A stretch of 64,000 nucleotides of DNA. Origin: an uncultured Acidobacteriia bacterium. GTDB lineage: Bacteria > Acidobacteriota > Terriglobia > Bryobacterales > Bryobacteraceae. The notes under the pieces were generated by a model. It had not been told where the DNA came from. It worked only from the letters and a program-made list of their open reading frames with translations, and did no database searches. The position numbers were made by a program, and so were the translations under genes. Positions 7,236-46,857 of the stretch are shown one piece after another. The number at the start of each line of letters is the position of its first letter. Within the stretch, counting starts at the first letter, position 1. Location of the stretch: contig CAINNJ010000051.1 of the NCBI GenBank assembly GCA_903851195.1, positions 1 through 64,000 on the forward strand. Reading direction: 5' to 3'.

Positions 7236-7301
7236 CGCATTTTCATCCCTTTGAAACGCTGTTGAAACGCTGTATTGGTACGCTTTGGGATTCCGGACAA
7301 A

Positions 7302-30609: not shown

Positions 30610-33555
30610 CTATCGGACAACCGCAAAGAGCGGAAACGGGAGAGTATCTTTCGGCTCGCTGAAGTTTTCCGCATGTTGCTTTTCTCCGGTCAGTTCAGCG
30701 ACACGGCGGGTCACCCATCTGCCCAGTTCGTCGGAAGTAATCACGCCGTCTTTCGCGGCCTTGCCGCCGATTCCTTCAATCAGCGCCTTGGTGAACGCGC
30801 CATGCTGCCATGCGGGATCTTCAATGGAAGACTCGGTTCCTTTGGAAGCCGTGAAGTAAGTGATACCGGTCATCTCATCCCTGGTGTTCTTGATTACTTC
30901 CGTGAAATCCGGCACCAGGCTGCGGACGCCGCGGGCGCCCGAAACCGCCCCGGCGTGGCAGGTGTCGACCATCAGGACCGAACGTCCCGCGCCGGCCCGC
31001 AGAGGCGTCAGAAGCTGCGACCATGTAACTCCGTCATCCGCGCTGTCAATCGACTTGCAGTCGTAGCTGCAGAAAAAGTAACTCCGGCTGTCGCCCAGTT
31101 CCAGGCCGCCGTGGCCCGCCAGAAAAAGAATGCGCGTGTCGTTCTGAGTCCCGCTGGTGCCGAGCCAGCGCAGCGCCGCCAGGATCTCTTTCCGTTTAGC
31201 GCGCTCATTTGGCAGCAGCCGGGTCTGCACCTCGCGGAAGAATTTGCCGTTCGCCTGCTGGCGGACCAGCCGCTCCAGTTCTTCGGCATCCTTATCCGCG
31301 TAATGAAGCTGCAGGGCGGAATCGGAGTAAGTGGAGATGCCGATCGAGAGAAAATAGAGATCGCCGGCCGGCGGCGGCTCGCCCATATCCGAAGTCAGTT
31401 GCAGGACAACGGTGTCGGACGTCGCTTTCCCGTTGCCCGCATCGACTGTCAGCACCTGCGTCTTTTTTGTAAGCGGAATTTTGACGTCGAAATCCTGCCG
31501 CATCAACCCGGGCGTGTATTCCCGGAAAGGATGCCCGTCGAGTGAAATCCGGACCAGCGAGACGGGCAGGGAGCCGGTGGAAATCACCGTGCCTTTCACG
31601 GAGACCGAAGTGTCGTGGATTACGGCGTTGTTAGTCGGAAACGCGACGTAAATCTCGGGGGGGCGCGCGGCGGCCACGTCGGCGGGTTTGGCGACTTCCT
31701 GCAGGGAGGCGCCTCCGCCCTTGTGACTGTTGGCGGCACGCAGGGCGGTGGTGATATCCGCGGTCTTCAGATTCTCTTCGAGGACATCGGGCCGGTAAAA
31801 GGTTTTCTGGAAGCGGGACACGCTGTAGTATTTGGCCAGTTCTTTATTACCGCCATTGACCTGCCAGCCCACATACTTATCGCCGTTCAGACTCGATGCG
31901 TAATAGCCCTGCGGTGTCCACGCAACCCACTCCTGGTTATCTCCAAGGAAGAAACAAAGCAGGCTCCTGCCGGACGCCAGATCCCAGACGCGCACCGTCT
32001 GGTCGTCGGAACCGCTGACCAGATTGCGGCCGTCGGGCGAGACGGAGACGGCCCAGACATTTCCGGTGTGCCCGATCAGATCCATCACCTTGCGTCCGTT
32101 GTCAGCGGAATAAACCGCGGCGACGCCACCCAGAGCGCCACTAACGACGTAACGGCCATCCGGAGTCAGCGTGTAACTCAGGTGCCGGAAACCGGTGGTT
32201 CGGTCAAGAGCGATCTCGGTGACCTTGCCGCCGGGCTTCAGAATGCGCAGGACGGCGCCGCCGCGATCGGTCGACAGTTCCAGACCGGGCATCCGAACGA
32301 TTGCCGGAAAGGCGTCGAACTGCGTAAGACCCATGTTCAGACCGACGTGATAAAAGTCTTTGTCGGTTTTCAGGCGGATTTGATATTTGAGCGGACCGCG
32401 GTTGTTGGGCACCGATTGCGCGGAGCGTTCCGTGCCGAAGGCGACCGCCCTTCCGTCGCGCGAGAAGACCGCGCTCCAGACGGCGGATCCGGCGCCCGAC
32501 AGTTTGCGGAGCATGGCGCCGGTCGCGACATCCCAGAGGTAAATTTCGTTCGAATCTCCGCCGGATGTCGCGGCTGTCCTGCCATCGGGAGAGATGGCGT
32601 TGGCGGTGATCGGCGCGCTGTGCCGGTCGAAGCTGACCAGCGGCGCTCCCGAGGGGAATGCGAGGACCTTCGCGACAGGACCCTGATTGCGCAGGGACGT
32701 CACTAACAGGCCGCTTCCATCGGGAAGAAACGACAGGTTGGAAGGATAAGTGGCGGGGGATTCGGCGCCGGGGAAGGAAGTTACCGGCGAGGTAGTGCCC
32801 GCATCCCAAACCCTGACCAGAGCGTTGTCATCCACGGCGGCAAGGTAACGGCTGTCCGGCGAGAACTTCACGGAGACAACGGCGACCGCGGAGGCCGGCA
32901 AATCCCGCGCGACCCGTTTTTGCTGCACGTTCCAGAGGTGAGTCACGCCGTCCGCGCCGCCCCAGGCGAGCCATTTCCCGTCTTTCGAGTAAGTGATGCT
33001 GTTGACCTGGATTTTCCCGCCGATGTTACTCACGATTCGTCCGGAACCGACATCCCAGATACGAACGCCGCCATCGGCGCTTCCGGAAGCGAGGAAACGG
33101 TTGTCGGCCGAGAAGGCGAGGCACAGCGTCACGTTCACGGAACCGAGCAGCACGGCGGAGATTTCACCCGACGGAAGAGAATGGAGCCGGATAGCTCCGG
33201 TATCGCCGGGCATCCAGCCGCCCGTGGCCATCATGCGACCATCCGGGGAAACAGCCAGAGCGATGATCTTTCCCTGCTGTCCCGGCGCGATCTCGCCGCG
33301 GATTGTCTGTTCCACGCGTCCCGTCCGCGTGTCCCAGATCCGGATCACCTTATCCTCGCCCCCGCTGATGAGAAGTCCGCCGTCGTTTAAGAAAGCAAGG
33401 CGGGTAATTCGCGCGGTATGTCCGCCGTTGTCGATCACGAGTAACGGATCGTCGCCGAAACAGGGGACCGCAAGAAACAGCAGCCACGGCCCGGCCAAAA
33501 GCGCGGCTTTCAGGACGTTGTTACATCGAAATGGCATATAACTTACAAATGACAT
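30610..33555 (-). CDS. Exported WD40-repeat caspase-family protease
   Basis: A 981-residue protein, first gene of the caspase operon. The signal peptide (ALLAGPWLLFLAVPCFG) directs it out of the cytoplasm; an ATG at 33537 is an alternative start. Residues ~40-540 hold WD40 repeats (units such as GEDKVIRIWDTRTGRVEQTI and SGSDDQTVRVWDLASGRSLL). A bridging region contains VAWTPQGYYASSLNGDKYVG and an Ig-like segment (~645-725). Residues ~735-960 are a caspase p20-like domain with the dyad His815 in ILFLAGHGG and Cys866 in LMVDTCHAGA. WD40-caspase fusions are known in multicellular or complex bacteria and are usually thought of as sensors joined to a death or regulatory protease. The trigger and substrates are unknown. 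Confidence 0.9.
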   Translation of the reverse strand: MSFVSYMPFRCNNVLKAALLAGPWLLFLAVPCFGDDPLLVIDNGGHTARITRLAFLNDGGLLISGGEDKVIRIWDTRTGRVEQTIRGEIAPGQQGKIIALAVSPDGRMMATGGWMPGDTGAIRLHSLPSGEISAVLLGSVNVTLCLAFSADNRFLASGSADGGVRIWDVGSGRIVSNIGGKIQVNSITYSKDGKWLAWGGADGVTHLWNVQQKRVARDLPASAVAVVSVKFSPDSRYLAAVDDNALVRVWDAGTTSPVTSFPGAESPATYPSNLSFLPDGSGLLVTSLRNQGPVAKVLAFPSGAPLVSFDRHSAPITANAISPDGRTAATSGGDSNEIYLWDVATGAMLRKLSGAGSAVWSAVFSRDGRAVAFGTERSAQSVPNNRGPLKYQIRLKTDKDFYHVGLNMGLTQFDAFPAIVRMPGLELSTDRGGAVLRILKPGGKVTEIALDRTTGFRHLSYTLTPDGRYVVSGALGGVAAVYSADNGRKVMDLIGHTGNVWAVSVSPDGRNLVSGSDDQTVRVWDLASGRSLLCFFLGDNQEWVAWTPQGYYASSLNGDKYVGWQVNGGNKELAKYYSVSRFQKTFYRPDVLEENLKTADITTALRAANSHKGGGASLQEVAKPADVAAARPPEIYVAFPTNNAVIHDTSVSVKGTVISTGSLPVSLVRISLDGHPFREYTPGLMRQDFDVKIPLTKKTQVLTVDAGNGKATSDTVVLQLTSDMGEPPPAGDLYFLSIGISTYSDSALQLHYADKDAEELERLVRQQANGKFFREVQTRLLPNERAKRKEILAALRWLGTSGTQNDTRILFLAGHGGLELGDSRSYFFCSYDCKSIDSADDGVTWSQLLTPLRAGAGRSVLMVDTCHAGAVSGARGVRSLVPDFTEVIKNTRDEMTGITYFTASKGTESSIEDPAWQHGAFTKALIEGIGGKAAKDGVITSDELGRWVTRRVAELTGEKQHAENFSEPKDTLPFPLFAVVR

Positions 33556-34033: not shown

Positions 34034-34738
34034 ATGATTCCGAAAATCGATCAGCGACTGCGGGACTGGGCGGCGCGGATCATTCCCGGAATGCCCGTAT
34101 CCCTGAGTTTTCCGGTTACTCCGCCGACCGGCAACGGCATCGCGATCTGTCTGTGTGACCTTTCCGGCGATCCGCCGCCGCGCGGCCCGAAGCGGCCTCC
34201 GCTGCAGATCCTGCTGCGGTATCTGGTGACGGCATGGGCCGAGGATGTGACGCAGGCTCATGAGTGTATCTTCCGGCTGATGTTCTCCGCGCTGGAAAAC
34301 GCGGAGTTCGACGTGGAGCGGGAAGCGGTCCCGTTGGCGCTCTGGCAGGCGCACGGCATCGCGCCGCGGCCGGCGTTCTTGTTGCGCGTGCCCTTGCGGC
34401 AGGAACAACCCGAGCCCGAAACCAGGATAGTGACGAAGCCTCTTGTTGTATCGCACTCGGGCATGCGGATTGTGGAAGGCACGGTGGTTGGACCCGGCGA
34501 TGTTCCGCTGATGGACGCGCTGGTGGAAGCGCCGTTGTTCAACCTGGTCACAAGGACCGATTCCAGGGGCCGGTTTCGCTTCCCTGCCCTGCCCGCGCAA
34601 CAGGCCGCGCATGCCCTTCGCGTGACGGTCAAAGGGCGTGAATTGCACGTCAACACCGAAAACAGCGCCGCCGGCGAAACCGGCGGTCTGCTGATTCGCT
34701 TTCATGCGGAGGATCGCAACTTATGCCCACTTACCTGA
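34034..34738 (+). CDS. DUF4255 / Pvc16-like CIS terminator protein with extra C-terminal domain
   Basis: A 234-residue protein. Residues 1-~125 match the DUF4255 (Pvc16_N) pattern of tail-terminator proteins that cap the sheath-tube of extracellular CIS (LQILLRYLVTAWAEDVTQAH, AFLLRVPL). Residues ~140-225 add a carboxypeptidase-regulatory-like beta-sandwich (MRIVEGTVVGPGDVPLMDAL, LVTRTDSRGRFRFP), a domain usually found on secreted proteins. This could project from the distal cap. It is the first gene of the operon, overlapping the sheath gene by 16 bases. In Photorhabdus- and Serratia-type clusters the terminator gene is last, so this order differs. Confidence 0.85.
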   Translation: MIPKIDQRLRDWAARIIPGMPVSLSFPVTPPTGNGIAICLCDLSGDPPPRGPKRPPLQILLRYLVTAWAEDVTQAHECIFRLMFSALENAEFDVEREAVPLALWQAHGIAPRPAFLLRVPLRQEQPEPETRIVTKPLVVSHSGMRIVEGTVVGPGDVPLMDALVEAPLFNLVTRTDSRGRFRFPALPAQQAAHALRVTVKGRELHVNTENSAAGETGGLLIRFHAEDRNLCPLT

Positions 34739-35913
34739 GTCCGGGCGTTTATGTCGAAGAAGTCTCCACCGGCGCGCGACCGATTGAATCGGTGCCCACC
34801 AGCATCGCGGCATTTGTCGGCCAGGCGCCGGACCCCGAAGCGCGGGTGAATCAGGCGTGGGCCGTGAATAACTGGTCGCAGTTCAAGCGCGAGTATGTTC
34901 GCGACAGTCCGCGCAGCACGCACTTATCCCAGGCGGTGTTCGGTTTCTTTGAGAACGGCGGACACCGGTGTTACATCGTTAATACCGGGGCCGAGGGAGC
35001 GATCGTCGGCGATAACAAGGGGCGCAAGGGTCTCGACTTACTCGAGACCGTGGACGAGGTCGCCATTGTCGCCGCGCCTGGCATGACCGACCCGGAATCG
35101 TATGAAGCGCTGCTTTCTCATTGCGAGAAACTGGGTGATCGCTTCGCGATTTGTGACTCTCCGGAGAATGTCCCCGACGTGGAGGCGATGACGAAAGTCG
35201 CCACCGCGCCGATACCCGGGCAACCCGCCGCGCCCGCCGGCGAGACCCGCGGTCTGCGGCCGCGCGTGTCCAACTACGGCGCGTGTTACTATCCCTGGAT
35301 CACGGTGCGGGACGCGCTGACGGGCGCGCTGATCAATACCTGCCCTTCGGGTTACATGGCGGGTATCTACGCGCGTTCCGATGCCACGCGGGGCGTCGCC
35401 AAAGCCCCCGCGAACGAGGTGGTCCGGGGGGCGCTCAACGCGCTGCCGATTACGCGCGAAGAACAGGCGCTGCTCAACAGCAACGGCGTGAACTGTATCC
35501 GTTTCTTCAACCGGCAGGGCATTCTGGTCTGGGGCGCGCGAACGCTGGCGGATGCGGGCGAGTGGCGCTACGTGAGTGTCCGGCGGCTCTTCAATCAGGT
35601 GGAGGAGTCGATTGCGAACAGCACGCGCTGGGTGGTGTTCGAGCCGAACGACCGCACGCTCTGGAAATCGATTCGCCGCGATATTACTGCATTTTTGACT
35701 TTATTCTGGCGGGACGGCGCGCTGATGGGGCGCTCTCCGGCGGAGGCCTTCTTCGTGAAATGCGATGAAGAGACCAACACGCCGGAGGTGATTGACGCGG
35801 GCATGGTGGTGGCGGTGATCGGCCTGGCGCCCGTGAAGCCCGCTGAATTTGTGATTTTCCGGATCGGCCAGGGTCTGGGCAAGACGGAAGTTCAATCGGG
35901 AGGTGGCGCCTGA
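34723..35913 (+). CDS. Contractile tail sheath protein
   Basis: A 396-residue phage-tail-sheath family protein. The N-terminus YLSPGVYVEEVSTGARPIE and the insert IAAFVGQAP are typical. The C-terminal domain contains the sheath handshake region (FFVKCDEETNTPEVIDAGM, IGLAPVKPAEFVIFRIGQG). It would polymerise around the tube and contract to drive it through a target membrane. It is the only sheath paralogue here, whereas many extracellular CIS have two or three. GGAGG lies 10 bases before the ATG. The stop shares one base with the tube gene start (TGATG). Confidence 0.95.
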   Translation: MPTYLSPGVYVEEVSTGARPIESVPTSIAAFVGQAPDPEARVNQAWAVNNWSQFKREYVRDSPRSTHLSQAVFGFFENGGHRCYIVNTGAEGAIVGDNKGRKGLDLLETVDEVAIVAAPGMTDPESYEALLSHCEKLGDRFAICDSPENVPDVEAMTKVATAPIPGQPAAPAGETRGLRPRVSNYGACYYPWITVRDALTGALINTCPSGYMAGIYARSDATRGVAKAPANEVVRGALNALPITREEQALLNSNGVNCIRFFNRQGILVWGARTLADAGEWRYVSVRRLFNQVEESIANSTRWVVFEPNDRTLWKSIRRDITAFLTLFWRDGALMGRSPAEAFFVKCDEETNTPEVIDAGMVVAVIGLAPVKPAEFVIFRIGQGLGKTEVQSGGGA

Positions 35914-36395
35914 TGCCTGAAGCCGCGGAGAGCGCGCCGGAAGCTCCGGAATCGGGAGCCCAGCCGGGCGTATTTAACGATCCCTATCGGGTTTATAACT
36001 TTAAGCTCCTGATTCAGGGAGTCGCGGAAGCGCATTTCACCGCCTGCAGCAATATCGCTATTCGCATCCATTCGATTCCGTATCGCGAGGGCGGTCTGCA
36101 GCAGGTGGTCCACCAGATTCCCGGCCGCGTGGAATACGCGGACGTCGAGTTGCGGTACGGCCTGACTTCGTCCTCCGAACTGTGGCGCTGGTTCATGTGC
36201 GCGGTGGAGGGCAAGGTGGAACGGAAGCACGTTTCCATCGCGATGCTGAATTCGGAGGGCACCCAGGAAATGATGCGCTGGGACCTGGTGAATGCGTGGC
36301 CGCGGGAGTGGCGTGGCGCGCACCTCGATGCCATGGGGAAAGACGTGGCGGTCGAGACGCTGGTGTTGTGTTTCGAAACGCTGAATCGAGGCTGA
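35913..36395 (+). CDS. Tail tube protein (T4 gp19 / Hcp-like family)
   Basis: A 160-residue phage-tail-tube family protein (DPYRVYNFKLLIQGVAEAHF, GRVEYADVELRYGL, WRWFMCAVEGKVERKHVSI, NAWPREWRGAHLDAMGKDVA). Such proteins stack into the rigid inner tube that is propelled out of the sheath. The first ~20 residues are acidic, Pro/Ala-rich and probably disordered. Only one tube paralogue is present, where Pvc-type systems have two, so the same subunit may form both the tube and its first ring. It is coupled to the sheath gene by a one-base overlap. Confidence 0.93.
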   Translation: MPEAAESAPEAPESGAQPGVFNDPYRVYNFKLLIQGVAEAHFTACSNIAIRIHSIPYREGGLQQVVHQIPGRVEYADVELRYGLTSSSELWRWFMCAVEGKVERKHVSIAMLNSEGTQEMMRWDLVNAWPREWRGAHLDAMGKDVAVETLVLCFETLNRG

Positions 36396-36399
36396 TCCG

Positions 36400-37413
36400 T
36401 TGCCGGTCAGGTCCATCACCCGGGAGCTGTTCGCCGCGGTTGCTCGCGGGGTTGCCCGAACGCTGCGGGGCTGGGCGGAAGCTTTGGCGCCCCTGCAGCC
36501 GGCAAGGCCGCAGGGAGGGCCGCCGAGTGAAGCGCCGCGACACGCGCCGGTTCCCGTTCCCGCGCCACCACCGAGGATCGTGATGCTGCCGCCCGACGCG
36601 CCAAATTCCCTCCCCGCGGCGGCGCCGACGGCTCCACCTCCACCACACTGGCAGGCGCGCGCCGACATGAGCCCGCCGGCGCACTGGGTGGAACTGGTTC
36701 GGCAGCGTGCCCCGCAACTGCTGGACAGTCCGCAGTATACAAGCGGTCTGGTGCCGCCGAAGCCGCAGGTCAGCAGGTGGCAGGGGGACGCGGGGCAGCG
36801 CACGCCGGAACCGCTCCCGTCGTTCCCGCCCGCGGCGAGTCAAGCAGGACCACCCGCGCGTCCAGCCCCCGTGGTGGTCCGAACAATCAGCGAGAGTCCG
36901 GCGGGCACCTTCCGTCCCTCGGCGTCGCGTGGGAACGCCCGACGCTCACCGCACTTCCGAGTGCGGATCACGCGGCCTGACGCGGGTGGAGTTTCGTTTC
37001 CTGAAGTTCGTCCCGCGAATCCCGGGAATGCCTCGTGGCCAGACCGAGACGCCAGTGCGACCGTGCCGACGACATCGCCTGCCGTGCAATCCCCGGCCGC
37101 TCAGCCCGCATCACGCCGCGTCGTCTGGCACGATCGCAAAGGCGTTGCTTCGGAACCAGTGGGCTACCGGGAATCGATGCCGTCGCCATCGCCTGCAACG
37201 GATTGGCCTGTGCCGGCCGAACCGGTCCGGGCCGCGCTTCCGGAAAGATCCCCGGCCGAAGCTCCACGCACGGCTGCACTGCAGTGGAGTCCCGCCGCCG
37301 AAAACGTCTGGCCGGAGTTGCCCCCTGCAACAGAAACAGCCCCCGACACGCGCCGGCTTCTGGCCGCGTTGCGCCATGAGTCGGAACTGATCCGCGAACA
37401 GCAAGGGCTCTGA
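36400..37413 (+). CDS. Proline-rich disordered protein of the CIS operon
   Basis: A 337-residue protein from a TTG four bases after the tube stop. The first ~25 residues are a basic helix (SITRELFAAVARGVARTLRG). The middle is almost entirely low-complexity Pro/Ala/Ser/Arg. The last ~35 residues are a compact helical tail (TRRLLAALRHESELIREQQ) preceded by WPELP. There is no family I recognise. Its slot, between the tube and the LysM adaptor, is occupied in other CIS by a small protein (Pvc6) or by assembly factors. An extended disordered chain bounded by helices could act as a length ruler, cargo carrier or lumen filler; this is speculative. It ends in a one-base overlap with the next gene. 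Confidence 0.7.
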   Translation: MPVRSITRELFAAVARGVARTLRGWAEALAPLQPARPQGGPPSEAPRHAPVPVPAPPPRIVMLPPDAPNSLPAAAPTAPPPPHWQARADMSPPAHWVELVRQRAPQLLDSPQYTSGLVPPKPQVSRWQGDAGQRTPEPLPSFPPAASQAGPPARPAPVVVRTISESPAGTFRPSASRGNARRSPHFRVRITRPDAGGVSFPEVRPANPGNASWPDRDASATVPTTSPAVQSPAAQPASRRVVWHDRKGVASEPVGYRESMPSPSPATDWPVPAEPVRAALPERSPAEAPRTAALQWSPAAENVWPELPPATETAPDTRRLLAALRHESELIREQQGL

Positions 37414-38180
37414 TGGAACGGGCAGCGTTTCTCCTCGAAGACACCGGTGAGCGCATCAGTTGCATGCTGAATCCCGACAGCGTGACCATGCGACGTGTTG
37501 CGGGAATCCGGACCCGCGAGTCCGCGAGCGGCCCGCTCACCGCGTCGGGTCTTGCGGACGACCCGCTGCTCTTTACCGGCGGCGGCAGCACGGAACTGAG
37601 CATGGATCTGCTGTTCGACATCTCGCTGGCCGGCACCTCGCTCGAAACCGACGACGTGCGGGAGTTGACCAAAGCGCTCTGGTCGCTGGCGGAGAATGCC
37701 ACGGGCGATGACGAGATTTACGGCAGCCCGCGCACGGTGCGGTTCGTGTGGGGCAAATACTGGAACATCCCGGGCGTCGTCGCGTCGGTGGCCGAGCGGC
37801 TGGAGTTCTTCACGGAGAGCGGTGCGCCGCGCCGTTCCTGGCTGCGGCTTCGGATGCTGCGAATGCCCGAATCGCTGCCTGGCGACACTGCCGCGGCGCC
37901 CGTCGTCGAGATGCCGCTGTTCACGGACCTGACCGATCTCGACATTCCGCCCGAAGCCATGATCGTCCACGAAACCTCCGGCAGCGCGCCCGATAGTTCC
38001 GGCGAGGACCCGGACGGTTTCCCCGGCGAGCGGCCGGACGAGCTTTCGCATCGCTATCTGGGCGATGCGTCCGCGTGGCGCTGGGTGGTGGCGCCGAGCG
38101 GTATCGACGATCCGCTGCATGTTCCGCCGGGCACCACGCTGCGCATCCCGCCGCCGGGCGCGATTCGGGAGACCGCATGA
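37413..38180 (+). CDS. CIS tube-baseplate adaptor with LysM-like C-terminus (Pvc7-like)
   Basis: A 255-residue protein. The N-terminal ~160 residues have the CIS-adaptor fold signature (FLLEDTGERISCMLNPDSV, GGGSTELSMDLLFDISLAGT, VRFVWGKYWNIPGVVASV). The end (SHRYLGDASAWRWVVAPSG, LHVPPGTTLRIPPP) is a LysM-like motif as found in Afp7/Pvc7 and phage baseplate hub adaptors. It joins the tube to the spike complex. The stop overlaps the start of the spike gene as ATGA. Confidence 0.88.
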   Translation: MERAAFLLEDTGERISCMLNPDSVTMRRVAGIRTRESASGPLTASGLADDPLLFTGGGSTELSMDLLFDISLAGTSLETDDVRELTKALWSLAENATGDDEIYGSPRTVRFVWGKYWNIPGVVASVAERLEFFTESGAPRRSWLRLRMLRMPESLPGDTAAAPVVEMPLFTDLTDLDIPPEAMIVHETSGSAPDSSGEDPDGFPGERPDELSHRYLGDASAWRWVVAPSGIDDPLHVPPGTTLRIPPPGAIRETA

Positions 38181-39691
38181 ATCCCCTCTCGGCATTGCCG
38201 CCGCTTCGCTTGACCGTGAACGCGAGTTCGGTTTCAACCGTAACCATGCAGGCGCTGCTGGAGGTGCAGGTGCGCCAGGCTCTTTCCGCGCCGTCGCTCT
38301 GTGAACTCGTGTTCGCGGGGCCGGCCGCGAAACTGCGTTCGGATCAGCTGCTGCCCGGCTCTTCGCTGACTCTGGATACGGGCGAAGGCGAGCCGCTCTT
38401 TACGGGACAGATCACCGCCCTCGATTACATCTACGCGCCGGATTCCGGGCAGCAACTGCGCGTGCGTGCCTACGATGCGTTGCACAGTCTTCGTAAGCGG
38501 CAGCCGGTTCGCGTGCATGTGGAAGTGACGCTGGCGGACCTCGCGCGCGAACTGACCGCGGATCTTGGCGTGGAAGTGCGGCAAGAGCAGGCGTCGCCAC
38601 TCTGGAAGCGGGTGTTCCAGCATCGGCAGTCCGATCTGGAACTGCTGGTGGATCTGGCCGGACGTTGCGGCCAGTATCTGGCGCTGCGCGGGGAGACGCT
38701 GCATCTGCTGACGCTGGAGGGCAGCGGCGATGCCGTGAGTCTGAAGCTCGGGGACTCCTTGTTCGAAGCCCGCGTGGAGGTCTCCGGGGAGCCGGCCTGC
38801 AGTTCCGTGATGGCGTCCGGCTGGAGCGCTACGCGGCTGGAAGGCTTCCGCGGTCTGGCGCTCGATCCGCGTCTGGGGCGCGACCCGCGGGGCGCGGTGC
38901 CGCCGCAGGATCTGGGCTCCGATGGCGCGCGCACGCTGACCGACGAAGGCGCGCAGGATAACGACCACGCGCTCGGGCTCGCGCAGGCGGAACTGGATCT
39001 GCGCTGCGCGCGGGAAGTCTCGCTGTGGGGTATCGCGGAAGGCAACTCGCTGCTTCGTCCCGGCGTTCCCGTCGAGGTCGCAGGGCTCGACGCCCAACTG
39101 CCGGACCGCTATGTGCTTGCGTCCGTGCTCCACACCATCGACCGCCGCAAAGGCTATGTCTCGGAGTTCTCCACGCTGCCGCCGGCGCCGCGCGTTCGGG
39201 CCAAGGCGGCGATGGCATCCCCCGGCGTGGTGTCGCGCGTGGACGATCCCGAGGGCCTTGGCCGCGTGAAAGTGAAACTCACCAGCTACGAAAATCTGGA
39301 GACCGACTGGATGGGCGTGCTGAGTCCGGGAGCCGGCGGCAAGAAGGGCTTCATCATGATTCCGGATGTGAACGACCAGGTGCTGGTGCTGTTCGCTCAT
39401 GAGGATCCCGGGCAGGGCGTGGTGCTGGGCGGGATGTTCGGCGTGAATGCGCCGCCGGACGCAGGCGTGGAAGGCGGGGCGGTCCGGCGGTTCACGCTGC
39501 TGACGCCGGGCGGGCAGCGCATTCGTCTCGACGACGGCCGCAACGCCATCCATATCGAGGACAGCACGGGGAGCTATATGGAGTTCTCGCCGGAGCAGGT
39601 GCGGCTGCACTGCAAGGTCGGCATGACGCTGGAAGCGCCTGGGCTTCCGATTGTGATCCAGGGCAAATCGATCGATTTCAAAGAGGCCTGA
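38177..39691 (+). CDS. VgrG-like spike protein (Pvc8-like)
   Basis: A 504-residue spike protein from an ATG overlapping the previous stop as ATGA; a longer frame begins at 38075 inside the adaptor gene and was rejected. Residues 1-~345 form the phage-late-control/gp27-like body (YIYAPDSGQQLRVRAYDALH, WKRVFQHRQSDLELLVDLAG). Residues ~365-445 are an OB-type gp5 domain (ASPGVVSRVDDPEGLGRVKV, KKGFIMIPDVNDQVLVLFAH, PGQGVVLGGMFG). The C-terminal stretch is a short beta-prism (IRLDDGRNAIHIEDSTGSYM). It forms the trimeric central spike that pierces the target membrane, with a PAAR-like cap encoded next. Confidence 0.92.
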   Translation: MNPLSALPPLRLTVNASSVSTVTMQALLEVQVRQALSAPSLCELVFAGPAAKLRSDQLLPGSSLTLDTGEGEPLFTGQITALDYIYAPDSGQQLRVRAYDALHSLRKRQPVRVHVEVTLADLARELTADLGVEVRQEQASPLWKRVFQHRQSDLELLVDLAGRCGQYLALRGETLHLLTLEGSGDAVSLKLGDSLFEARVEVSGEPACSSVMASGWSATRLEGFRGLALDPRLGRDPRGAVPPQDLGSDGARTLTDEGAQDNDHALGLAQAELDLRCAREVSLWGIAEGNSLLRPGVPVEVAGLDAQLPDRYVLASVLHTIDRRKGYVSEFSTLPPAPRVRAKAAMASPGVVSRVDDPEGLGRVKVKLTSYENLETDWMGVLSPGAGGKKGFIMIPDVNDQVLVLFAHEDPGQGVVLGGMFGVNAPPDAGVEGGAVRRFTLLTPGGQRIRLDDGRNAIHIEDSTGSYMEFSPEQVRLHCKVGMTLEAPGLPIVIQGKSIDFKEA

Positions 39692-40032
39692 TGCTGCTGC
39701 TCACCAATGACGCGGCCCTCGTCTGCATGCATGTCATGGGCAAGGTGGAGAACAAGCCGAGCCAGTCTTTCGTGACCATCGCGGGAGTGCGCGTGCTGGT
39801 GGAAAACGATCCGGAAGGCAGAACCATCGGCGGCTGCCCGAATGTCGGCGCCGTCATCAAGCCCTGCACCACGACGCTGAAGGTTTCCGATGGCTACTCG
39901 GGTCTGGTGCGGATCGGAGGACGGCGGGCCTGCCTCGATACGGTGACGGGCCTCACGGACGGAACACCGCCGGGAGTGGTGAAGTACCGCGTGGCGTCGC
40001 CCGGCCAGAAATTCGTGCGGGGGAGCCGGTGA
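39691..40032 (+). CDS. PAAR-like spike tip protein
   Basis: A 113-residue protein rich in Cys and Gly (GGCPNVGAVIKPCTT, GRRACLDTVTGLTDG), fitting the PAAR-like/DUF4280 proteins that cap CIS spikes with a metal-stabilised beta cone. Exact metal ligands cannot be set from sequence alone, because the classical three-His pattern is not plain. It starts within the spike stop (TGATG) and its own stop overlaps the gp25 start as GTGA, so it is part of the same translational chain. Confidence 0.82.
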   Translation: MLLLTNDAALVCMHVMGKVENKPSQSFVTIAGVRVLVENDPEGRTIGGCPNVGAVIKPCTTTLKVSDGYSGLVRIGGRRACLDTVTGLTDGTPPGVVKYRVASPGQKFVRGSR

Positions 40033-40472
40033 GCGTCGCGCAGTATCGCGCCTGGCGTTTCGTGCATCCGGATCTGGATGCGCCGGACGAATTCGCCGGT
40101 CTCCAAATCGGCCATACGGGCGCCATCGACATGGTGGAGGAGAACGCGTCGGTCCGCCAGGCGATTCTGATTCTTCTCACCACCGCGCCTGGGGAACGCG
40201 TGATGCTTCCCGAGTACGGCTGCGATCTGCAGAAACTGATGTTCTCGCCGAACGATGAGACCACGGCGGGAATGGCGATTCATTTCGTGCGTCAGGCACT
40301 GCTGCGCTGGGAGCCGCGGATTCAGATTATGCGGCTGGATGCGGCCGCGAATCCGGGCGAGCCCGCGCGCCTCGAAATTCTGCTGGAATACCGCGTGCGG
40401 AGAACGCGCAAGACAGATGAACTCGGCCTGTCCGTAAATCTTTCCGGCGATCTGACGGGGGACCTGCAATAG
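40029..40472 (+). CDS. gp25/GPW-family baseplate wedge protein (Pvc9-like)
   Basis: A 147-residue protein with the gp25-like lysozyme-fold wedge pattern (VEENASVRQAILILLTTAPG, ERVMLPEYGCDLQKLMFSP, IHFVRQALLRWEPRIQI). The family's conserved EPR-type motif is present. gp25 proteins form the core bundle of the baseplate and nucleate sheath assembly. It starts at GTG overlapping the previous stop, and the next gene's ATG follows its stop immediately. Confidence 0.92.
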   Translation: MSVAQYRAWRFVHPDLDAPDEFAGLQIGHTGAIDMVEENASVRQAILILLTTAPGERVMLPEYGCDLQKLMFSPNDETTAGMAIHFVRQALLRWEPRIQIMRLDAAANPGEPARLEILLEYRVRRTRKTDELGLSVNLSGDLTGDLQ

Positions 40473-43058
40473 ATGCCGATTGTGTCTCCCAATCTGGACG
40501 ACCGCACTTTCCGGCAACTGATGGAGGAGGTGCGCAACCGCGCGGCGGCCGTGTGTCCGACGTGGACCGACATGTCGCCAGGCGACCCCGGCACGGTGCT
40601 GCTGGAACTGTTTGCTTACCTGACGGAGATCATGCTGTACCGTCTCAATCGCATACCGGTGAAAGCCTATGCCGAGTTCCTGCGTTTAATCGGCGTCACC
40701 ATGTTTCCGCCCTCGGCCGCGACGGTCAATCTGGTTTTTCGCCGCACCAGCGCCGGTGGCGCGCGCATCGAGATTCCGCGAAATACGCGGGTGAGCGTGG
40801 GCCGACCGTCGTCGGGCACTGCGGCGCCGGTCTTCTATACGTCGCGCGCCGTTACCCTGGAGGCCGGGCAGCAGCAGGTGGAGGTTCTGGCGCAGAACAG
40901 CGAACCGGTGGAAGGGGAACTGGCGGGCAAGGGCACGGGGCTGCCGGGGCTGTGGGTCACGGCGGCGCGTCCGCCGATTGTTGCGCCGGCGACGGATGAA
41001 CCGGGGCTGGTGGTGGGCGTGGAAGAGGCGGGCGCGGAACTCGACGACCGCGCGCCGGCGGTTTCCTTCGGCGGCAAAGCGTACCGGATCTGGAACGAAG
41101 TGGAGCACTTCACGAATCTGACGGGCGACCGCCGCGTGTACACGGTGGACCGGGTCAGCGGCACCATCACGTTCGCGTCCGCCATTTTCGGCGAGAGCCC
41201 GTCGGGCGGTCTGGCGGCCACGGCGGAACTGCTGGCCGAAGTGCCCGCGAAGGACCGGGAGATCCGGCTTTGGTATCGCACGCAGGGCGGGCCTTCGGGC
41301 AACGTGGCGGCGAATACGCTGACGGTGCTGAAGACGCCTGTCGCGGGAGTGGAAGTAAATAACCCGGCGCCCGCTACGGGCGGGCGGCCCGCGGAGACGC
41401 TGGAAAACGCACTGGCGCGCGGGCCGCTGAACCTGCACGCGCCGCAACGCGCGGTGACGGCGTCGGACTACGAAGGAGTTGCCCTGCGCAGTTCCGGCGC
41501 GATCGCGCGGGCGCGCGCCTTCACCACGGCGGCTCTGTGGGTGCATGCCGCGCCGGGCACCGTGGAGGTGCTGCTGGTGCCGTATATTCCCGAGAACGTG
41601 CGTCCGGACGACCGCATCTCCGCCGCGACGCTGCAGGAGTATGCGACGGAGACCGCGCGCAGCCAGGTGCAGTCCGCGCTCGATGCGCGCCTGCCGCTGG
41701 CCACGGCGTGCCGGGTCGGGTGGGCGCGCATGAAGTCGGTCAAGGTGACGGGGCGGGTGGTGGCGCGGCGTGAGGAAGATCTGCCGTCGCTCCGCGGGCG
41801 CGTGTTGCGGCGGCTCTATCAGACCATCAGTCCGCTGCCGAGCGCGGTGCATCCGACGGGCTGGCGGTTCGGCCAGGCGCTGCGGGCGTTTCATGTGTAC
41901 GACATCGTCATGCCGGAAGCCGGGGTCAGCTATCTGGATCACGTGACGCTGCAGGTGGAGGATGTGCCGGAGAAGGATGTCACCTCGCTCGCGGCGGATC
42001 TCTTTCAGCCATCCACCTGGTATGCGGGCAGCGGTTCCACTCTTTACAGAACGCTCGACGACGGGGATGGCTGGGAGCCGGCAAAGAAGTTCGGGGATGA
42101 GAGCGTCCGGTGCGTGCGTGTCCACCGGCGCATTCCTGGCCTGGTGGCGGTTTCCACGAAGTTGACTTCCGGCGCTTCCCGCATTTATATTTCGCGCGAC
42201 TGCGGCGAGAGTTGGGCGGTGGCGGCGGAGACCTCTTTCGAAGTGGAAGCGCTGGCGTGGACGATTCGCGACGGCGCACCGCTGCTCTTCCTCGCCACCG
42301 TGGTTGGCTTGTATCAACTTTCGCTCGACGCGGACGCGGTGCCGCTGCAGATTCTGCTCGATTCCGGCCCCGCCGATCGCGGTCTTTACGCCGTGGCGGC
42401 ACTCACGGATGTGCGCGGACAGGTCACGGTGGCGGTGGCGGCGCAGCGCACGGGCGGCGTGTTTATCTCGACGCAGGGCGGCAAGTCCGGCACGTTTCAG
42501 GACGTTGGTCTGCATGGGGAAGATGTGCGCGTGCTGGCCGTGCAGTACGACGGTCCGCGCTCGTTTCTCTGGGCCGGTGTTTCGGTCAGCGGCGCGGAGA
42601 CGGGCACGGGCTGCTACCGCGCGGAGCTGATGGAATCGAGGCTTTCGCCCGAAGGCTGGAAGCCGTTCGCGAAAGGCTGGAAAGGCGGCAGTTGCCGCGC
42701 GATCGCCTTCCAGGAACAACGGGTGCTCGCGGCATCCTTTCAGGCCGGCGTGTTGTGGCTGGATTCGGGTAAAGCCGATCCTTCGTGGGAAGCCCCGGAG
42801 ATTAACTGCCGCCTGCCGCAACGCGAACTGGGCCGTGTGTTTCAGAGGGTGGACGCGCTGGCGACGGATCCCGCGGGGAAAAGGCTCATGGCCGGAGGAC
42901 CGGTGGGAGTCTACCGCAGCGGCGACGGCGGCGTTTTTTACAATTGCTGCTCCTGTTCGGAATTTACTTCCAAAGTTACTTTGCCGGATACGTGGCTCTT
43001 CTGTTCCGGCGAGCACGAGATCGAAGTGGTGGGGGAAGATGAGACGAAACGAGATTGA
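40473..43058 (+). CDS. Baseplate J-like protein fused to a C-terminal beta-propeller
   Basis: An 861-residue protein. Residues 1-~500 are a baseplate-J/Pvc11-type wedge (TWTDMSPGDPGTVLLELFAYL, LYRLNRIPVKAYAEFLRLIG, GRPAETLENALARGPLNLHA, YVYD-like HVYDIVMPEAGVSYLD). From ~residue 505 to 830 a different fold follows, with BNR/sialidase or YCF48-type repeats (YAGSGSTLYRTLDDGDGWEP, RIYISRDCGESWAVA, GGVFISTQGGKSGTFQDVGL, GVYRSGDGGVFYN). The Asp-box-like S/T-x-D-x-G-x-x-W units form a propeller. The end has a Cys cluster (CCSCSEF). J-like proteins normally have no propeller, so this may be a built-in receptor- or glycan-binding module. Translation overlaps the next gene by 20 bases. Confidence 0.88.
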   Translation: MPIVSPNLDDRTFRQLMEEVRNRAAAVCPTWTDMSPGDPGTVLLELFAYLTEIMLYRLNRIPVKAYAEFLRLIGVTMFPPSAATVNLVFRRTSAGGARIEIPRNTRVSVGRPSSGTAAPVFYTSRAVTLEAGQQQVEVLAQNSEPVEGELAGKGTGLPGLWVTAARPPIVAPATDEPGLVVGVEEAGAELDDRAPAVSFGGKAYRIWNEVEHFTNLTGDRRVYTVDRVSGTITFASAIFGESPSGGLAATAELLAEVPAKDREIRLWYRTQGGPSGNVAANTLTVLKTPVAGVEVNNPAPATGGRPAETLENALARGPLNLHAPQRAVTASDYEGVALRSSGAIARARAFTTAALWVHAAPGTVEVLLVPYIPENVRPDDRISAATLQEYATETARSQVQSALDARLPLATACRVGWARMKSVKVTGRVVARREEDLPSLRGRVLRRLYQTISPLPSAVHPTGWRFGQALRAFHVYDIVMPEAGVSYLDHVTLQVEDVPEKDVTSLAADLFQPSTWYAGSGSTLYRTLDDGDGWEPAKKFGDESVRCVRVHRRIPGLVAVSTKLTSGASRIYISRDCGESWAVAAETSFEVEALAWTIRDGAPLLFLATVVGLYQLSLDADAVPLQILLDSGPADRGLYAVAALTDVRGQVTVAVAAQRTGGVFISTQGGKSGTFQDVGLHGEDVRVLAVQYDGPRSFLWAGVSVSGAETGTGCYRAELMESRLSPEGWKPFAKGWKGGSCRAIAFQEQRVLAASFQAGVLWLDSGKADPSWEAPEINCRLPQRELGRVFQRVDALATDPAGKRLMAGGPVGVYRSGDGGVFYNCCSCSEFTSKVTLPDTWLFCSGEHEIEVVGEDETKRD

Positions 43059-43632
43059 ACGGCTGCTCCCCTCCGTGTTTCGCCGCACCGTTGGCGATAA
43101 GACGCCGCTGGCCGCGCTGCTGGAAGTTATGGAGCACTTACACCGGCCGTCCGAGCAGGTGCTGACGCGGCTCGATTCCTTTTTCGATCCCCGGCGCGCG
43201 CCGGACGCGTTCGTGCCGTTTCTTGCCAGCTGGGTGGATCTGGAACGGATCTTCGAACAACCCGCTCATATTCTGGCCCGAAGCGCACAAAGCGCAGGGG
43301 GCGGGCAGACGACCGGGTCCGCCGCGTCGCCATTGAGCACCGGGATGGGCAGACTGCGGGAACTGACGGCGTCCGCGGCGTATCTGGCCAGCTGGCGCGG
43401 GACGAAATACGGGCTGCTGCGGTACCTGGAGATTGCCACCGGACACACGGAGTTCGAAATCGATGAAAACGTCGCGGACGCCGAGGGGCTGAAAAGACCG
43501 TTTCACATGAGGATCCGCGCCCCTGAAACGCTGCTCGCCCACCGCGCACTACTGATCAGGATCATCGAGGAAGAAAAGCCCGCTTACGTGACTTACTCAC
43601 TGGACTTCCTGCCGGGCACGGCGAAGTTATAA
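43039..43632 (+). CDS. Tail protein I-like baseplate wedge (Pvc12/gpI-like)
   Basis: A 198-residue protein from an ATG inside the previous gene, with GGGGGA before it; a longer frame starting at 42835 was rejected because it runs inside the J-like gene. It has the helical tail-protein-I pattern (LLPSVFRRTVGDKTPLAALLEVM, VPFLASWVDLERIF, ASWRGTKYGLLRYLEIATGH) and ends in a small beta domain (AYVTYSLDFLPGTAKL). P2 gpI-type proteins join the J wedge at the baseplate rim and often hold fibres. It is far shorter than Pvc12, and no tail-fibre gene follows. Last gene of the packed CIS operon. Confidence 0.82.
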   Translation: MRRNEIERLLPSVFRRTVGDKTPLAALLEVMEHLHRPSEQVLTRLDSFFDPRRAPDAFVPFLASWVDLERIFEQPAHILARSAQSAGGGQTTGSAASPLSTGMGRLRELTASAAYLASWRGTKYGLLRYLEIATGHTEFEIDENVADAEGLKRPFHMRIRAPETLLAHRALLIRIIEEEKPAYVTYSLDFLPGTAKL

Positions 43633-43747: not shown

Positions 43748-44899
43748 ATGCCAAGCGCATTCGCGATTACTCCCGCGGCAAGCACCCTGCGACTCGACGC
43801 GCAGGGACGCGGGGAACTCAGTTTTACGGTAACCAACACCAGCGGCCGCCCGCTGCGCGGCAGGGCGAAAGTGCAGGCGCAGGATCCTTCTCAGCAGTCC
43901 TGGTTCCGGCTCGAAGGGGAACCCGAGCGGAACTTCGCGGCCGATAAGAGCACGGATCAGTTCGTCGTCAAAGTCAATGCCCCGCCGAACACACCTCCGG
44001 GGAAGGCCGTGATGCATCTGGACATGTCCTCCGTGGAAAATCCGGACGAGGTTTTCACCATCGGCCCGATGGTTTCCTGCGAACTGATCAGGCAGGACGT
44101 GGTGAAAAAGAAAATTCCCTGGTGGGTTTACGCGGTCGGCGCGGGCGTAGTTGTACTTTTAATTGCCGTGCTGCTGCTGACGCGGACCGCGAAAGTGCCG
44201 AATGTGGTGAATATGTCGTTCGCCGATGCGCAGAAAGAACTGGAAGCGGCGGGTATGAAGCTGGGGCAGACGAATCAGAAGTCGACGGGTAAGCCTGCCG
44301 GCACCGTGCTCGCGCAGACGCCGGCCGCCGGAGAAGCGATGCCCGACCACAAGATTATTAATCTGGACGTGGAGCAGGAACCGCCGCACGACGTCGCCGT
44401 GCCTGCCATAGTAGGCCTTTCTCTGACCGATGCGCAGGACAAACTGACCAAGGCCAGTCTCAAGCCGGGTAAGTTCACCTATGACCTGAATTCGCCGGGT
44501 AAGCCGAATTTCGTTCTCGATCAGAATCCCCGAAAAGATATTCGGGTGCCGTTCGACACCGAAGTCGATCTGGTGGTCAAGGGAGATTCCGTTCCGGTTC
44601 CGGCGCTGGTGGGTAATTCCCTTCAGAATGCGGTGATCCAGCTGCAGAATATGGATCTGCAGATGGCGCTGTCGGAACAGGTGATCGATGCAAGAATCAA
44701 AGCGCCGGGCACGATTGTCGCCCAGAATCCGGCGCCGCAGATCATGGTTGCCAGAAAGTCGACCATCGCGATGACGGTCGCCAAAGCGCCCAATGTGGTG
44801 ATCAGTTACAACCCGGTCTTTTATGAAAGACTGAATGCGCAGTCGAAAATGAGCCTGCAGTCGATTTCCAGCGGCCGGGCGCTGGCGCCGCAGAAATAG
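43748..44899 (+). CDS. Membrane protein with Ig-like head and three PASTA domains
   Basis: A 383-residue single-pass protein. Residues 1-~118 look like an Ig-like or cohesin-type beta-sandwich (TLRLDAQGRGELSFTVTNTSG, VVKVNAPPNTPPGKAVMHL). Residues 124-145 are a membrane helix. Then three PASTA repeats follow: ~148-209 (KVPNVVNMSFADAQKELEA), ~217-278 (AVPAIVGLSLTDAQDKL) and ~283-345 (VPALVGNSLQNAV). PASTA domains bind peptidoglycan or muropeptides, typically in Ser/Thr kinases; no kinase is present here. With no signal peptide, the head would lie in the cytoplasm and the PASTA part in the periplasm. It follows the CIS genes by 115 bases, with AAGGAGA before the start; a docking or wall-anchoring role is inferred from position. 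Confidence 0.82.
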   Translation: MPSAFAITPAASTLRLDAQGRGELSFTVTNTSGRPLRGRAKVQAQDPSQQSWFRLEGEPERNFAADKSTDQFVVKVNAPPNTPPGKAVMHLDMSSVENPDEVFTIGPMVSCELIRQDVVKKKIPWWVYAVGAGVVVLLIAVLLLTRTAKVPNVVNMSFADAQKELEAAGMKLGQTNQKSTGKPAGTVLAQTPAAGEAMPDHKIINLDVEQEPPHDVAVPAIVGLSLTDAQDKLTKASLKPGKFTYDLNSPGKPNFVLDQNPRKDIRVPFDTEVDLVVKGDSVPVPALVGNSLQNAVIQLQNMDLQMALSEQVIDARIKAPGTIVAQNPAPQIMVARKSTIAMTVAKAPNVVISYNPVFYERLNAQSKMSLQSISSGRALAPQK

Positions 44900-44906
44900 C
44901 AGGGCC

Positions 44907-45389
44907 ATGAAGATCGCCGTCGCCGTATTAATTCTTCTGGTTGCCCTGTTTGTCGTTTCCATATGGATGGGTTCGAAGAAGGAAGACTCCGGAAGTTCCG
45001 CGGCGGCGCCGCAACCCTCCTGGGTACAGAGTCTGCAGACCACGTTCGGCGGCCATGAAACGTTCGTGGCCGCCGGCGAGGTGAGCGCGCCGTGTTTCAG
45101 CGGCGCCGCCTTTCAGCTTCCTTCGGCGCGGCCCTGTTCCGGCGAAATCGCGGCGGCAAAGCCTTCCATCCGGACCCTCCATCTGGCCCTGGCCGGACCG
45201 GACCCCTCGAAACCGGGTCTTCTGCGTCCGGCCACCATCACCATCAACTCCAAAGACGGCTCGCTGGCGCCGATGAAAGTGCAACTTACTTTGAAGAATC
45301 CGGACACGAAGTCGATCAAAGTTCTGAGTCAGGGCGCCACGTTCTCGATTCAGTGCGATGCGGCTCCGTGCCGGGTCGCGTTGCTTTAA
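44907..45389 (+). CDS. Single-pass membrane protein downstream of the CIS
   Basis: A 160-residue protein with one N-terminal helix (IAVAVLILLVALFVVSIWMG) and a periplasmic domain with four Cys (APCFSGAAF, RPCSGEI, IQCDAAPCRV) that may form two disulphides. No family recognised. It starts seven bases after the PASTA gene stop, so the two are co-expressed. It converges with a minus-strand membrane-protein gene eight bases away, where a weak hairpin (CCGTC-AGAC-GACGG, 45395-45408) overlaps the facing stop codon. Confidence 0.68.
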   Translation: MKIAVAVLILLVALFVVSIWMGSKKEDSGSSAAAPQPSWVQSLQTTFGGHETFVAAGEVSAPCFSGAAFQLPSARPCSGEIAAAKPSIRTLHLALAGPDPSKPGLLRPATITINSKDGSLAPMKVQLTLKNPDTKSIKVLSQGATFSIQCDAAPCRVALL

Positions 45390-45397
45390 GAGAACCG

Positions 45398-46174
45398 TCA
45401 GACGACGGCTTTCACGATGGCGGGTATCGAACCAATCAGCAGGAACACGGCCCAGATGAGAGCCAGCACCAGGACGATAATCGCGGCCACCGCGTCGGTA
45501 ATGCTGACCAGGATAACCGGCACCAGACCGTGCAGAAAACCGATGACGATATTGGCAATCAGCGAGGTCACGATGATGAGCACGAAGCCTTTGTTCTGTA
45601 GAAACCGCTGCTGCGCCAGAACAAGGACGACGGCGAAGGCGACCTTCAGAAACATCAGCAGACTGAGCGCCGCCGCCGCGCCGCCCCGGTTGAAAAAGCC
45701 CCAGACCACCAGATAAGCCAGCGTGCCGAACGGAACCGCCGTGAACAGCGCAATCATGATCATCAGCTTGACGAAAGCCGCGATCGCCAGACCAATACCG
45801 GCCAAAATGATCAGGATCGACACGATCAGCGTGACCACGCCCTGCACTCGGCCCGTCAAGCGCTCGGGAAGCAACAACGGCAGGCCCATCAGGATCACCG
45901 TAAAAACCAGCAGGCCGTCGAGCAGGGCCATATCGCCGATTGCCATGCCGGGCGGCTTACTGACGGAGTGGCTGTCGTTCACCAGCTGGGTCGCCATATT
46001 CGCGCGCTCACTTGCGCTGTATCCGGTCAGTTGTGCCTGGATGGACGTATTCAGTGAAGCGTCGTCCGGTTTGGGCGCGGGTATCACGGACGAGGAGCCC
46101 ACTTCCACCAGCACGGCAATAACAATCAGGATGACGGCAATGATAAACAGCGGCGTTCGCAGGCTATCGAGCAT
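45398..46174 (-). CDS. Polytopic membrane protein of unknown function
   Basis: A 258-residue protein with an N-terminal helix, an extracytoplasmic loop (~28-75) and about five more membrane helices (GLLVFTVILMGLPLLL, VTLIVSILIILAGIGLAIAA, AAALSLLMFLKVAFAVVLVL, FVLIIVTSLIANIVIGFL, AAIIVLVLALIWAVFLLIG). No transporter or enzyme motif is visible. It converges with the CIS-linked membrane protein and diverges from rlpA with only 23 bases between the starts, so its promoter must overlap the rlpA start region. Confidence 0.78.
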   Translation of the reverse strand: MLDSLRTPLFIIAVILIVIAVLVEVGSSSVIPAPKPDDASLNTSIQAQLTGYSASERANMATQLVNDSHSVSKPPGMAIGDMALLDGLLVFTVILMGLPLLLPERLTGRVQGVVTLIVSILIILAGIGLAIAAFVKLMIMIALFTAVPFGTLAYLVVWGFFNRGGAAAALSLLMFLKVAFAVVLVLAQQRFLQNKGFVLIIVTSLIANIVIGFLHGLVPVILVSITDAVAAIIVLVLALIWAVFLLIGSIPAIVKAVV

Positions 46175-46197: not shown

Positions 46198-46857
46198 ATG
46201 TTGTCGCAAACTGATTATACGCGCAGACGGACTGCCGGAGCACTTACTTTTTTGAGCCTGGCGGCACTTACTTTGTACGGTTGCGGTAAGAAGGCAGCCG
46301 CTCCCGAGCGTCCTTCCGAATCGGGCATCGCGAGCTGGTACGGGCACCCGTATCACGGCCGTAAGACGGCCAGCGGCGAGACTTACGACATGGAGGGCAA
46401 AACCGCCGCGCACCGCACGCTCGCGTTCGGCACGGTGGTGCAGGTGACGAACACGGAGAACTCCCGCCAGGTGGAAGTCCGCATCAACGATCGCGGACCG
46501 TTCGTGGCGGGCCGCATTATCGATCTGTCGCATGGGGCGGCACAAAGCCTCGGGATCACCGGCACGGGCAAGGTCCGCCTGGAGGTGGTCAGTGCGCCGC
46601 CAACACGCGGTCTGGACTCCTTCGCTGTCCAGACCGGTGCTTATACGGATCGCGCCGAGGCAGACCGCGCCCGCGCCGCTCTGGCGGCGTTCGGCGAGAC
46701 GCGCGTCGTACAGCGCGAAGGGGACCAGACCTGGCGGGTCCTTGCCGGCATGGAACAGAGCGAAGACGCCGCGAATCGTCTTGCGGACCGGATCCGCGCC
46801 GCGCCCGGCGTTACTGCCGCGGACGTGTTCGTCGTCCGACTCGACCCGGAAAACTGA
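46198..46857 (+). CDS. rlpA: RlpA-family lytic transglycosylase lipoprotein
   Basis: A 219-residue protein. The signal peptide has a lipobox-like end TLYGC (Cys29), so it is probably a lipoprotein. Residues ~43-125 form the double-psi beta-barrel (GIASWYGHPYHGRKTASGE, TLAFGTVVQVTNTENSRQVE, VRINDRGPFVAGRIIDLSHG), including the catalytic Asp region (NDRGPF). Residues ~138-217 form a SPOR domain (DSFAVQTGAYTDRAEADRAR). RlpA cuts denuded glycan strands in septal peptidoglycan and the SPOR part targets it to the division site. See the separate entry on its ribosome site. Confidence 0.93.
   Translation: MLSQTDYTRRRTAGALTFLSLAALTLYGCGKKAAAPERPSESGIASWYGHPYHGRKTASGETYDMEGKTAAHRTLAFGTVVQVTNTENSRQVEVRINDRGPFVAGRIIDLSHGAAQSLGITGTGKVRLEVVSAPPTRGLDSFAVQTGAYTDRAEADRARAALAAFGETRVVQREGDQTWRVLAGMEQSEDAANRLADRIRAAPGVTAADVFVVRLDPEN

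Follow-up and report, generated by a model that had tools for sequence, protein, structure and literature searches.

The question raised by this locus is whether a contractile injection system (CIS) encoded without ATPase, tape measure or fibre genes is a reduced extracellular particle or a machine of another kind. The locus lies within a 64,000-nucleotide stretch of contig CAINNJ010000051.1 from an uncultured member of the Bryobacteraceae (hereafter the window), where a first-pass annotation had described ten CIS genes at positions 34034-43632. Ten overlapping or abutting open reading frames (ORFs, named g1 to g10) were confirmed there by an ORF check and profile searches, with two start positions corrected (38177 and 43039). 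Their placement stood, while the end at 43632 proved too short, as genes conserved in the lineage (g11 to g13) reach 46174. Judged from comparison of its genes, the system is a distinct and compact CIS lineage without a Pvc15-type ATPase, which spans several phyla and includes plasmids. The machine is proposed to assemble in the cytoplasm and to dock on the producer's own membrane, similarly to a type VI secretion system (T6SS), instead of being released. A probability of about one half is given to this reading.

In order to delimit the lineage, loci were collected by a sheath scan of named genomes (the best 80 of 590 relatives were kept) and by a scan of the phylum, in which 44 of 396 genomes contained a sheath; both scans together yielded 110 loci. 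In a tree of 108 of the sheaths, built with a quick method and without curated dbeCIS/eCIStem references, 27 compact rows were split off by a branch with a Shimodaira-Hasegawa-like approximate likelihood ratio test (SH-aLRT) support of 100. Some rows are long, including L064; L067 and L020 (below 300 residues, the L067 sheath being in pieces) and the duplicates L001, L111 and L112 were omitted. The lineage sheath falls outside the ATPase-bearing clade, and its neighbour in the tree is a myxococcal group (support 91). Besides the window and G368 from the same phylum, members were found in Ardenticatenaceae, Caldilineaceae, metagenome-assembled genomes of a Desulfobacteraceae and a gammaproteobacterium, Caballeronia, Jannaschia, Catellatospora, Allorhizocola, Rhizocola, Micromonospora, Verrucosispora, Microlunatus, Actinopolymorpha and Arthrobacter. 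Included are L034, L046-L048 and L050, which show part of the cluster only, as the contig stops there. The cluster is also present in Ktedonobacter (L067), with a sheath too split for the tree. The suggestion that the system might be acidobacterial was thus abandoned.

The baseplate-J protein (g9) was matched over at least 80% of its length by five plasmid records. Three of these plasmids were fetched (Deinococcus AJ005, R. sulfidophilum and Paracoccus MC1862), and all showed the same core order, each with an annotated 'PASTA domain-containing protein' after the wedge gene. The genes g13 and g11 and the J propeller described below were detected in 3/3 plasmid loci, and the ATPase in 0/3. No publication describing the lineage, a J propeller/PASTA module in a CIS or a close relative with the same gene set was recognised in the literature within reach, from which supplements and subscription papers (including dbeCIS) fall out; single members may already figure in published lists.

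Directly after the ten genes, three putative membrane proteins are encoded, with topologies predicted from hydropathy:

43748-44899, forward strand: g11, with an Ig-like N-terminal part (about 115 residues, by eye), a basic KKKIPWW stretch, one transmembrane segment and three PASTA repeats; candidate wall/membrane anchor
44907-45389, forward strand: g12, with an N-terminal transmembrane segment and a small domain whose cysteines are near-invariant
45398-46174, reverse strand: g13, polytopic membrane protein of 258 residues

The gene g13 is the most constant companion of the lineage. Profile searches, in which only some first-pass candidates were scored per genome, detected it in 28/28 lineage genomes (weakest match in G420, E 7.9e-9) versus 0/16 other sheath-bearing genomes; ten of the 28 genomes supplied rows to the model and 18 are independent. 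Among the 396 genomes of the phylum, g13 occurred in two, precisely those with a lineage sheath, and was missing from the 42 other sheath-bearing genomes. Of the control genomes, neither the two Streptomyces-type actinomycetes nor the eight others examined had it. Within the family of G397 (Micromonosporaceae by tree labels, 200 genomes sampled), 44 of the 47 genomes with the propeller also carried g13, five of the 44 having fed the model, and 0 of the 153 genomes without the propeller did. The three exceptions among the propeller carriers are G544, G478 and G596, the last two without recognisable sheath in 19 kb. In the genus of the host, G644 carries J (73% identity), gene 10, g11, g12 and g13 (reverse strand) in the same order, and g13 was absent from the nine propeller-negative genomes examined out of 17. 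No Pfam match was obtained for g13, and a fold search of the PDB with its model (pLDDT 75.8) gave none at E <= 0.001.

The profiles of g11 and g12 each matched 20 of the 24 lineage loci over 6 kb. The misses were L034, L047 and L050, which are ended by the contig, and L064. Among 50 other CIS loci, two gave no more than 24 and 22 bits with the g11 profile, and the g12 profile matched none. PASTA repeats were detected in 10/15 relatives of g11, and Kelch in one. PADLOC matches of g11 to PD-T4-6, which span the transmembrane/PASTA portion, were rejected. Directly past g13, an RlpA-like lytic transglycosylase with a SPOR domain is encoded at 46198-46857.

The second distinctive element is an extension of the baseplate-J protein, g9, which was divided as follows:

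about 40473-41984, forward strand: J core
about 41985-43055, forward strand: predicted seven-bladed beta-propeller, residues about 505-861

In profile searches the C-terminal residues resembled BNR/GH74/sortilin propellers. The AlphaFold2 model of J (pLDDT 84.3, pTM 0.63) was further used for structure searches: its core matched the S. coelicolor CIS baseplate (9gtp, E 1.5e-26), and its C-terminus matched propellers, namely GH74 (E 2.6e-12) and ribosome-bound seven-bladed WD40 proteins at a target-normalised TM of about 0.7. The domain is therefore predicted to be a fused seven-bladed propeller. Its profile matched 23/23 lineage loci having J versus 0/32 other loci with a J core match; 14 of the 23 contributed to the model. 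The propeller was present in 47 of the 200 genomes sampled from the family of G397. Two of these, G478 and G596, are orphan cases: the J-propeller genes L147 and L148, from two genomes of that family, are without a sheath that could be recognised within 19 kb of sequence.

The absence of a Pvc15-type ATPase, noted by the first-pass annotation for the window, was examined with a CIS ATPase profile that combined nine sequences from type II loci and was run on 38 genomes. Ten positive control genomes picked for ATPase-bearing loci, of which eight supplied profile rows, all scored at least 800 bits. No CIS ATPase was found in the host genome (7.72 Mb, 67 contigs, 99.66% complete), the best match of 101.7 bits covering the AAA core only, nor in 21 of the 27 other genomes with a lineage sheath (22/28 in total). 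The observation thus came through the whole-genome search by which it could have failed. The remaining six genomes (G368, G396, G399, G403, G414 and G419) reached at least 400 bits; the two ATPase genes of G368 are at 5-6 kb from the further two sheath loci of that genome, and in G396 the gene is about 50 kb off on the contig of the cluster. Counted by locus (over 6 kb), the ATPase was found with 0/24 lineage loci versus 31/50 other CIS loci. A P-loop motif at the edge of L044 was not matched by the profile. The claim of absence is made for the locus and for genomes having only this system.

Two observations weigh against giving the ATPase more importance. Firstly, 19 of the 50 non-lineage loci lack it as well: 11 of the myxococcal sister group (L055, L056, L058-L060, L062, L063, L065, L066, L069 and L073, examined at the loci) and eight of type II (L071, L083, L085, L086, L094, L095, L106 and L110), several of which are cut upstream, 10 kb upstream being covered for L085, L106 and L110. 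Secondly, in the family of G397, where 76/200 genomes have an ATPase, its presence is uncorrelated with the propeller (13/47 positive versus 63/153 negative genomes, Fisher p 0.12). The absence is a lineage trait, perhaps not the lineage's own invention, since the myxococcal sister loci suggest that the loss may be older. Myxococcal L055-L066, L069 and L073, without CIS ATPase at the loci and without g13 (six genomes tested for the latter), may for that reason represent a further ATPase-less type. An ATPase-free machine is plausible, since PVCs without Pvc15 still assemble yet carry no payload in the available sections of the report (PMC11495950), which also predicts another route for cargo.

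From these elements the following mechanism is proposed. The CIS would be assembled in the cytoplasm and then dock on the cytoplasmic membrane of the producing cell, where the baseplate, through the J propeller, may bind the cytosolic face of a complex of g11, g12 and g13 that the PASTA repeats would tether to peptidoglycan. Contraction would push tube, VgrG and PAAR tip outward across the envelope into a touching cell. In the absence of a Pvc15-type loader, cargo would either be carried by the spike or tip or enter at assembly, rather than being threaded by an ATPase. Three features together point to the producer's own envelope: the nearly constant presence of a membrane partner, an outer domain of usually wall-binding type, and the addition to J. 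The link between g13 and the machine is also supported by G368, where g13 has a PAAR gene as its neighbour at a place separate from the main cluster.

The addition to J is relevant because Cis11, the J protein, was fitted at the membrane contact in the haloarchaeal system, a CIS bound to the cytoplasmic membrane with a correlated six-transmembrane protein (PMC11566945, available sections, as for all statements on this system); the six-transmembrane anchor is Hbor_38620. Like the window, this haloarchaeal T6SS (clade IIa, Halogeometricum borinquense) has a linked polytopic membrane protein; its firing is membrane-bound, as is proposed here. It differs in that its 14 structural genes are split over two subclusters, cis11 is present twice and the published scheme includes an ATPase; the sections available make no mention of a J propeller or a PASTA protein.

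In canonical bacterial T6SS (types i-iii), a cytosolic sheath is docked on an envelope complex. The mode of action may be alike, although the system of the window is unlike these in its single-chain, phage-like sheath and its gp25/J/P2-I wedges. No model of the two-part TssB/TssC sheath, TssJLM or ClpV was matched among the 20 neighbour ORFs scanned. The host genome encodes a canonical TssF elsewhere (G000:C64:362126-363988, 572 bits) and may therefore carry two different contractile systems.

Several points weigh against the anchored reading. Anchoring and the direction of firing were inferred from gene linkage, hydropathy topology and analogy, and the mode of action of a CIS is considered unreliable to predict from sequence alone (PMC12998442, available sections). 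The module is also not uniform: g12 was detected in 1/3 plasmid loci; G544 has a full cluster with two g11 in a genome without g13; a second cluster in G403 lacks an adjacent g13; in L064, g11 and g12 are unrecognisable and g13 is weak. The main cluster of G368 is without g12, a weak g12 (E 0.006) lying near g13, and the position of g13 varies: L043, L067 and Paracoccus have it upstream of the cap. Moreover, a membrane protein encoded beside a CIS can serve self-killing, as CisA shows.

The latter leads to the alternative that survives best, a cytoplasmic CIS of the Streptomyces kind which fires at the producer's membrane under stress, with g11 to g13 as a CisA-like receptor and trigger. The closest solved sheath and J are indeed those of the Streptomyces cytoplasmic CIS (eCIS type IId; 8bky, 9gtp). 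Both systems have cap, tube, VgrG, gp25, J and wedge, lack tape measure and fibre, and have a gene for a bitopic membrane protein close to those of the baseplate. According to the available sections of PMC12237407, CisA is bitopic, encoded directly past the baseplate genes and required for function and firing in S. coelicolor. It is described with a substrate-binding-like domain and without PASTA, whereas the outer part of g11 is PASTA, a contrast drawn by description only. Most Streptomyces-type loci seen also differ by an AAA+ ATPase upstream of the sheath, and the type by a longer sheath and a J without propeller. C14/CHAT caspase-superfamily proteases are encoded near 8/24 named lineage loci and near the window, G368 and G544 loci, versus 0/50 other CIS loci over 6 kb, and keep the self-killing explanation alive. 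Most lineage loci are nevertheless without such a protease, six of the eight positive ones are close relatives (L032-L038), and the protease search was seeded with lineage proteins only. Altogether, self-killing is judged rather unlikely.

The proteases show some regularities of their own. In the window, C14 caspase-superfamily genes lie at 30610-33555 and 21728-23722 (both reverse strand), and WD40 is also present. Near L043 the protease is at 6058-8862; others were seen near L032, L033, L035-L038, L053, L112 and L146, with CHAT and TPR in L032. In several loci a CHAT gene lies directly upstream of the cap, and a subtilase (Peptidase_S8) gene recurs next to CHAT in L032, L033, L035-L038 and L053. 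The proteases may act as effector or as trigger, or may be chance neighbours.

Clearly less probable is a released extracellular CIS in which the J propeller replaces the tail fibre as target binder. The propeller profile is akin to glycan-handling GH74/BNR proteins, and beta-propeller lectin domains occur in other eCIS fibres (PMC12923769, available sections). Release would, however, leave the close linkage to membrane genes unexplained, and no holin or endolysin model was matched among the scanned neighbours, no dedicated search being made, with the RlpA-like transglycosylase as the nearest observation. PVC, Afp, AlgoCIS and tCIS share the core tail genes, and the g2 sheath sequence matches Pvc2, Afp2 and others in the PDB; these systems have an ATPase, tape measure or fibres. 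PVC and Afp are unlike the window in having several sheath and tube paralogues (Pvc2-4, Afp2-4 matched in the PDB). A designation as extracellular found no support in this analysis.

An ordinary type II eCIS served by an ATPase encoded elsewhere is very improbable: such genes exist in 6/28 lineage genomes and 13/47 propeller-positive genomes of the G397 family, but none in the host and 21 others of the 28; those of G368 adjoin its other sheath loci, and none of the 13 shares a contig with the propeller gene at a distance of 300 kb or less, most being on other contigs. A phage tail, R-type tailocin or decaying prophage remnant, with which the system has tail ancestry in common, is equally hard to sustain, as the genes are open and syntenic across phyla, only 4/50,697 phage records match J (at most 39% of its length, inside the core) and the 20 neighbour ORFs scanned gave zero phage-head or other phage models.

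Building on the anchored reading, a wider proposal may tentatively be made, with somewhat less than even chances: in this lineage a type VI-like anchored machine would have arisen independently for a second time in bacteria, as an ATPase-free CIS docking by its propeller-bearing J on a peptidoglycan-gripping g11-g13 complex and spread horizontally, plasmids included, to bacteria with one or two membranes. Single-membrane bacteria would then gain a type of contact weapon that is not known from such bacteria, and the lineage would be a concrete candidate for a second weapon of this type in bacteria. It raises the question of how a CIS loads and recycles without ATPase, and points to membrane genes through which the mode of action could be decided.

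The ten core genes of the cluster, all on the forward strand, were assigned as follows:

34034-34738, forward strand: g1, cap/terminator-like, divergent Pvc16_N (DUF4255) with a C-terminal CarboxypepD_reg-like domain
34723-35913, forward strand: g2, sheath, short form of 396 residues
35913-36395, forward strand: g3, tube of the gp19 family (Phage_T4_gp19 3.6e-35, TIGR02241)
36400-37413, forward strand: g4, proline-rich (19%), uncertain TTG start
37413-38180, forward strand: g5, CIS_tube PF19266 (9.4e-14), LysM-type tube-hub adaptor by position
38177-39691, forward strand: g6, VgrG-like spike hub, start moved from 38075
39691-40032, forward strand: g7, PAAR-like tip
40029-40472, forward strand: g8, gp25 sheath initiator (gp25 1e-24)
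40473-43058, forward strand: g9, baseplate-J (Cis11/TIGR02243, 8e-67) with the fused C-terminal propeller
43039-43632, forward strand: g10, Tail_P2_I/TIGR02242 wedge, start moved from 42835

The core set of eCIS type II/IId (cap, sheath, tube, adaptor, VgrG spike, gp25, J and wedge) is complete, cap and tip being recognised at the family level only. Alone, g1 gave a weak Pvc16_N match (8e-4, under the cut-off) besides CarboxypepD_reg; in its family, Pvc16_N was matched in 6/11 members (best 5.9e-9) and the family profile reached the solved cap 9gts (E 2.4e-4). The assignment as cap, weak for the single protein, thus holds at the family level. A Pvc16_N family profile gave no match in the host genome, though no control matched either. 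Similarly, g7 alone matched no profile, including in a PDB profile search, while PAAR_motif was detected in 2/10 family members (best 0.0014), so that the PAAR-like assignment, weak singly, also holds at the family level. The sheath g2 was supported by Phage_sheath_1C (3e-18) and Phage_sheath_1 (3.8e-14), g6 by VgrG_rel (7.7e-42, under the cut-off of that model) and g10 by TIGR02242 (1.2e-13, slightly under cut-off). For g5, the LysM model itself was not matched. The cluster has one sheath and one tube gene, and a genome-wide scan found g2 as the only sheath gene of the host.

Two supposed peculiarities turned out to be shared. The position of the terminator gene before the sheath is no distinctive trait and was dropped: eight other loci were viewed, and the three plausible upstream ORFs that were scanned (ATPase-bearing L103 and L068, and myxococcal L055) were all Pvc16_N. 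The lack of a tape measure and conventional fibre is published for the S. coelicolor and S. venezuelae clusters (PMC10066040), and that of plug and tape measure for the haloarchaeal cluster (PMC11566945), in the sections available. In the view of a reduced or new subtype, the distinct, compact and ATPase-less character was recognised correctly, while the gained J propeller and membrane module were overlooked; the original interpretation is partly supported.

The protein g4 was considered as a possible tape measure, a role that was rejected because the length of its relatives varies widely (171 to 605 residues) and because only about 180 bp separate the tube and LysM-type genes in G368, which leaves no space for g4. 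No profile matched g4, and from its composition it is probably disordered. Its relatives are often proline-rich, and most of them end with a C-terminal RLDxEQxG-like motif recognised by eye.

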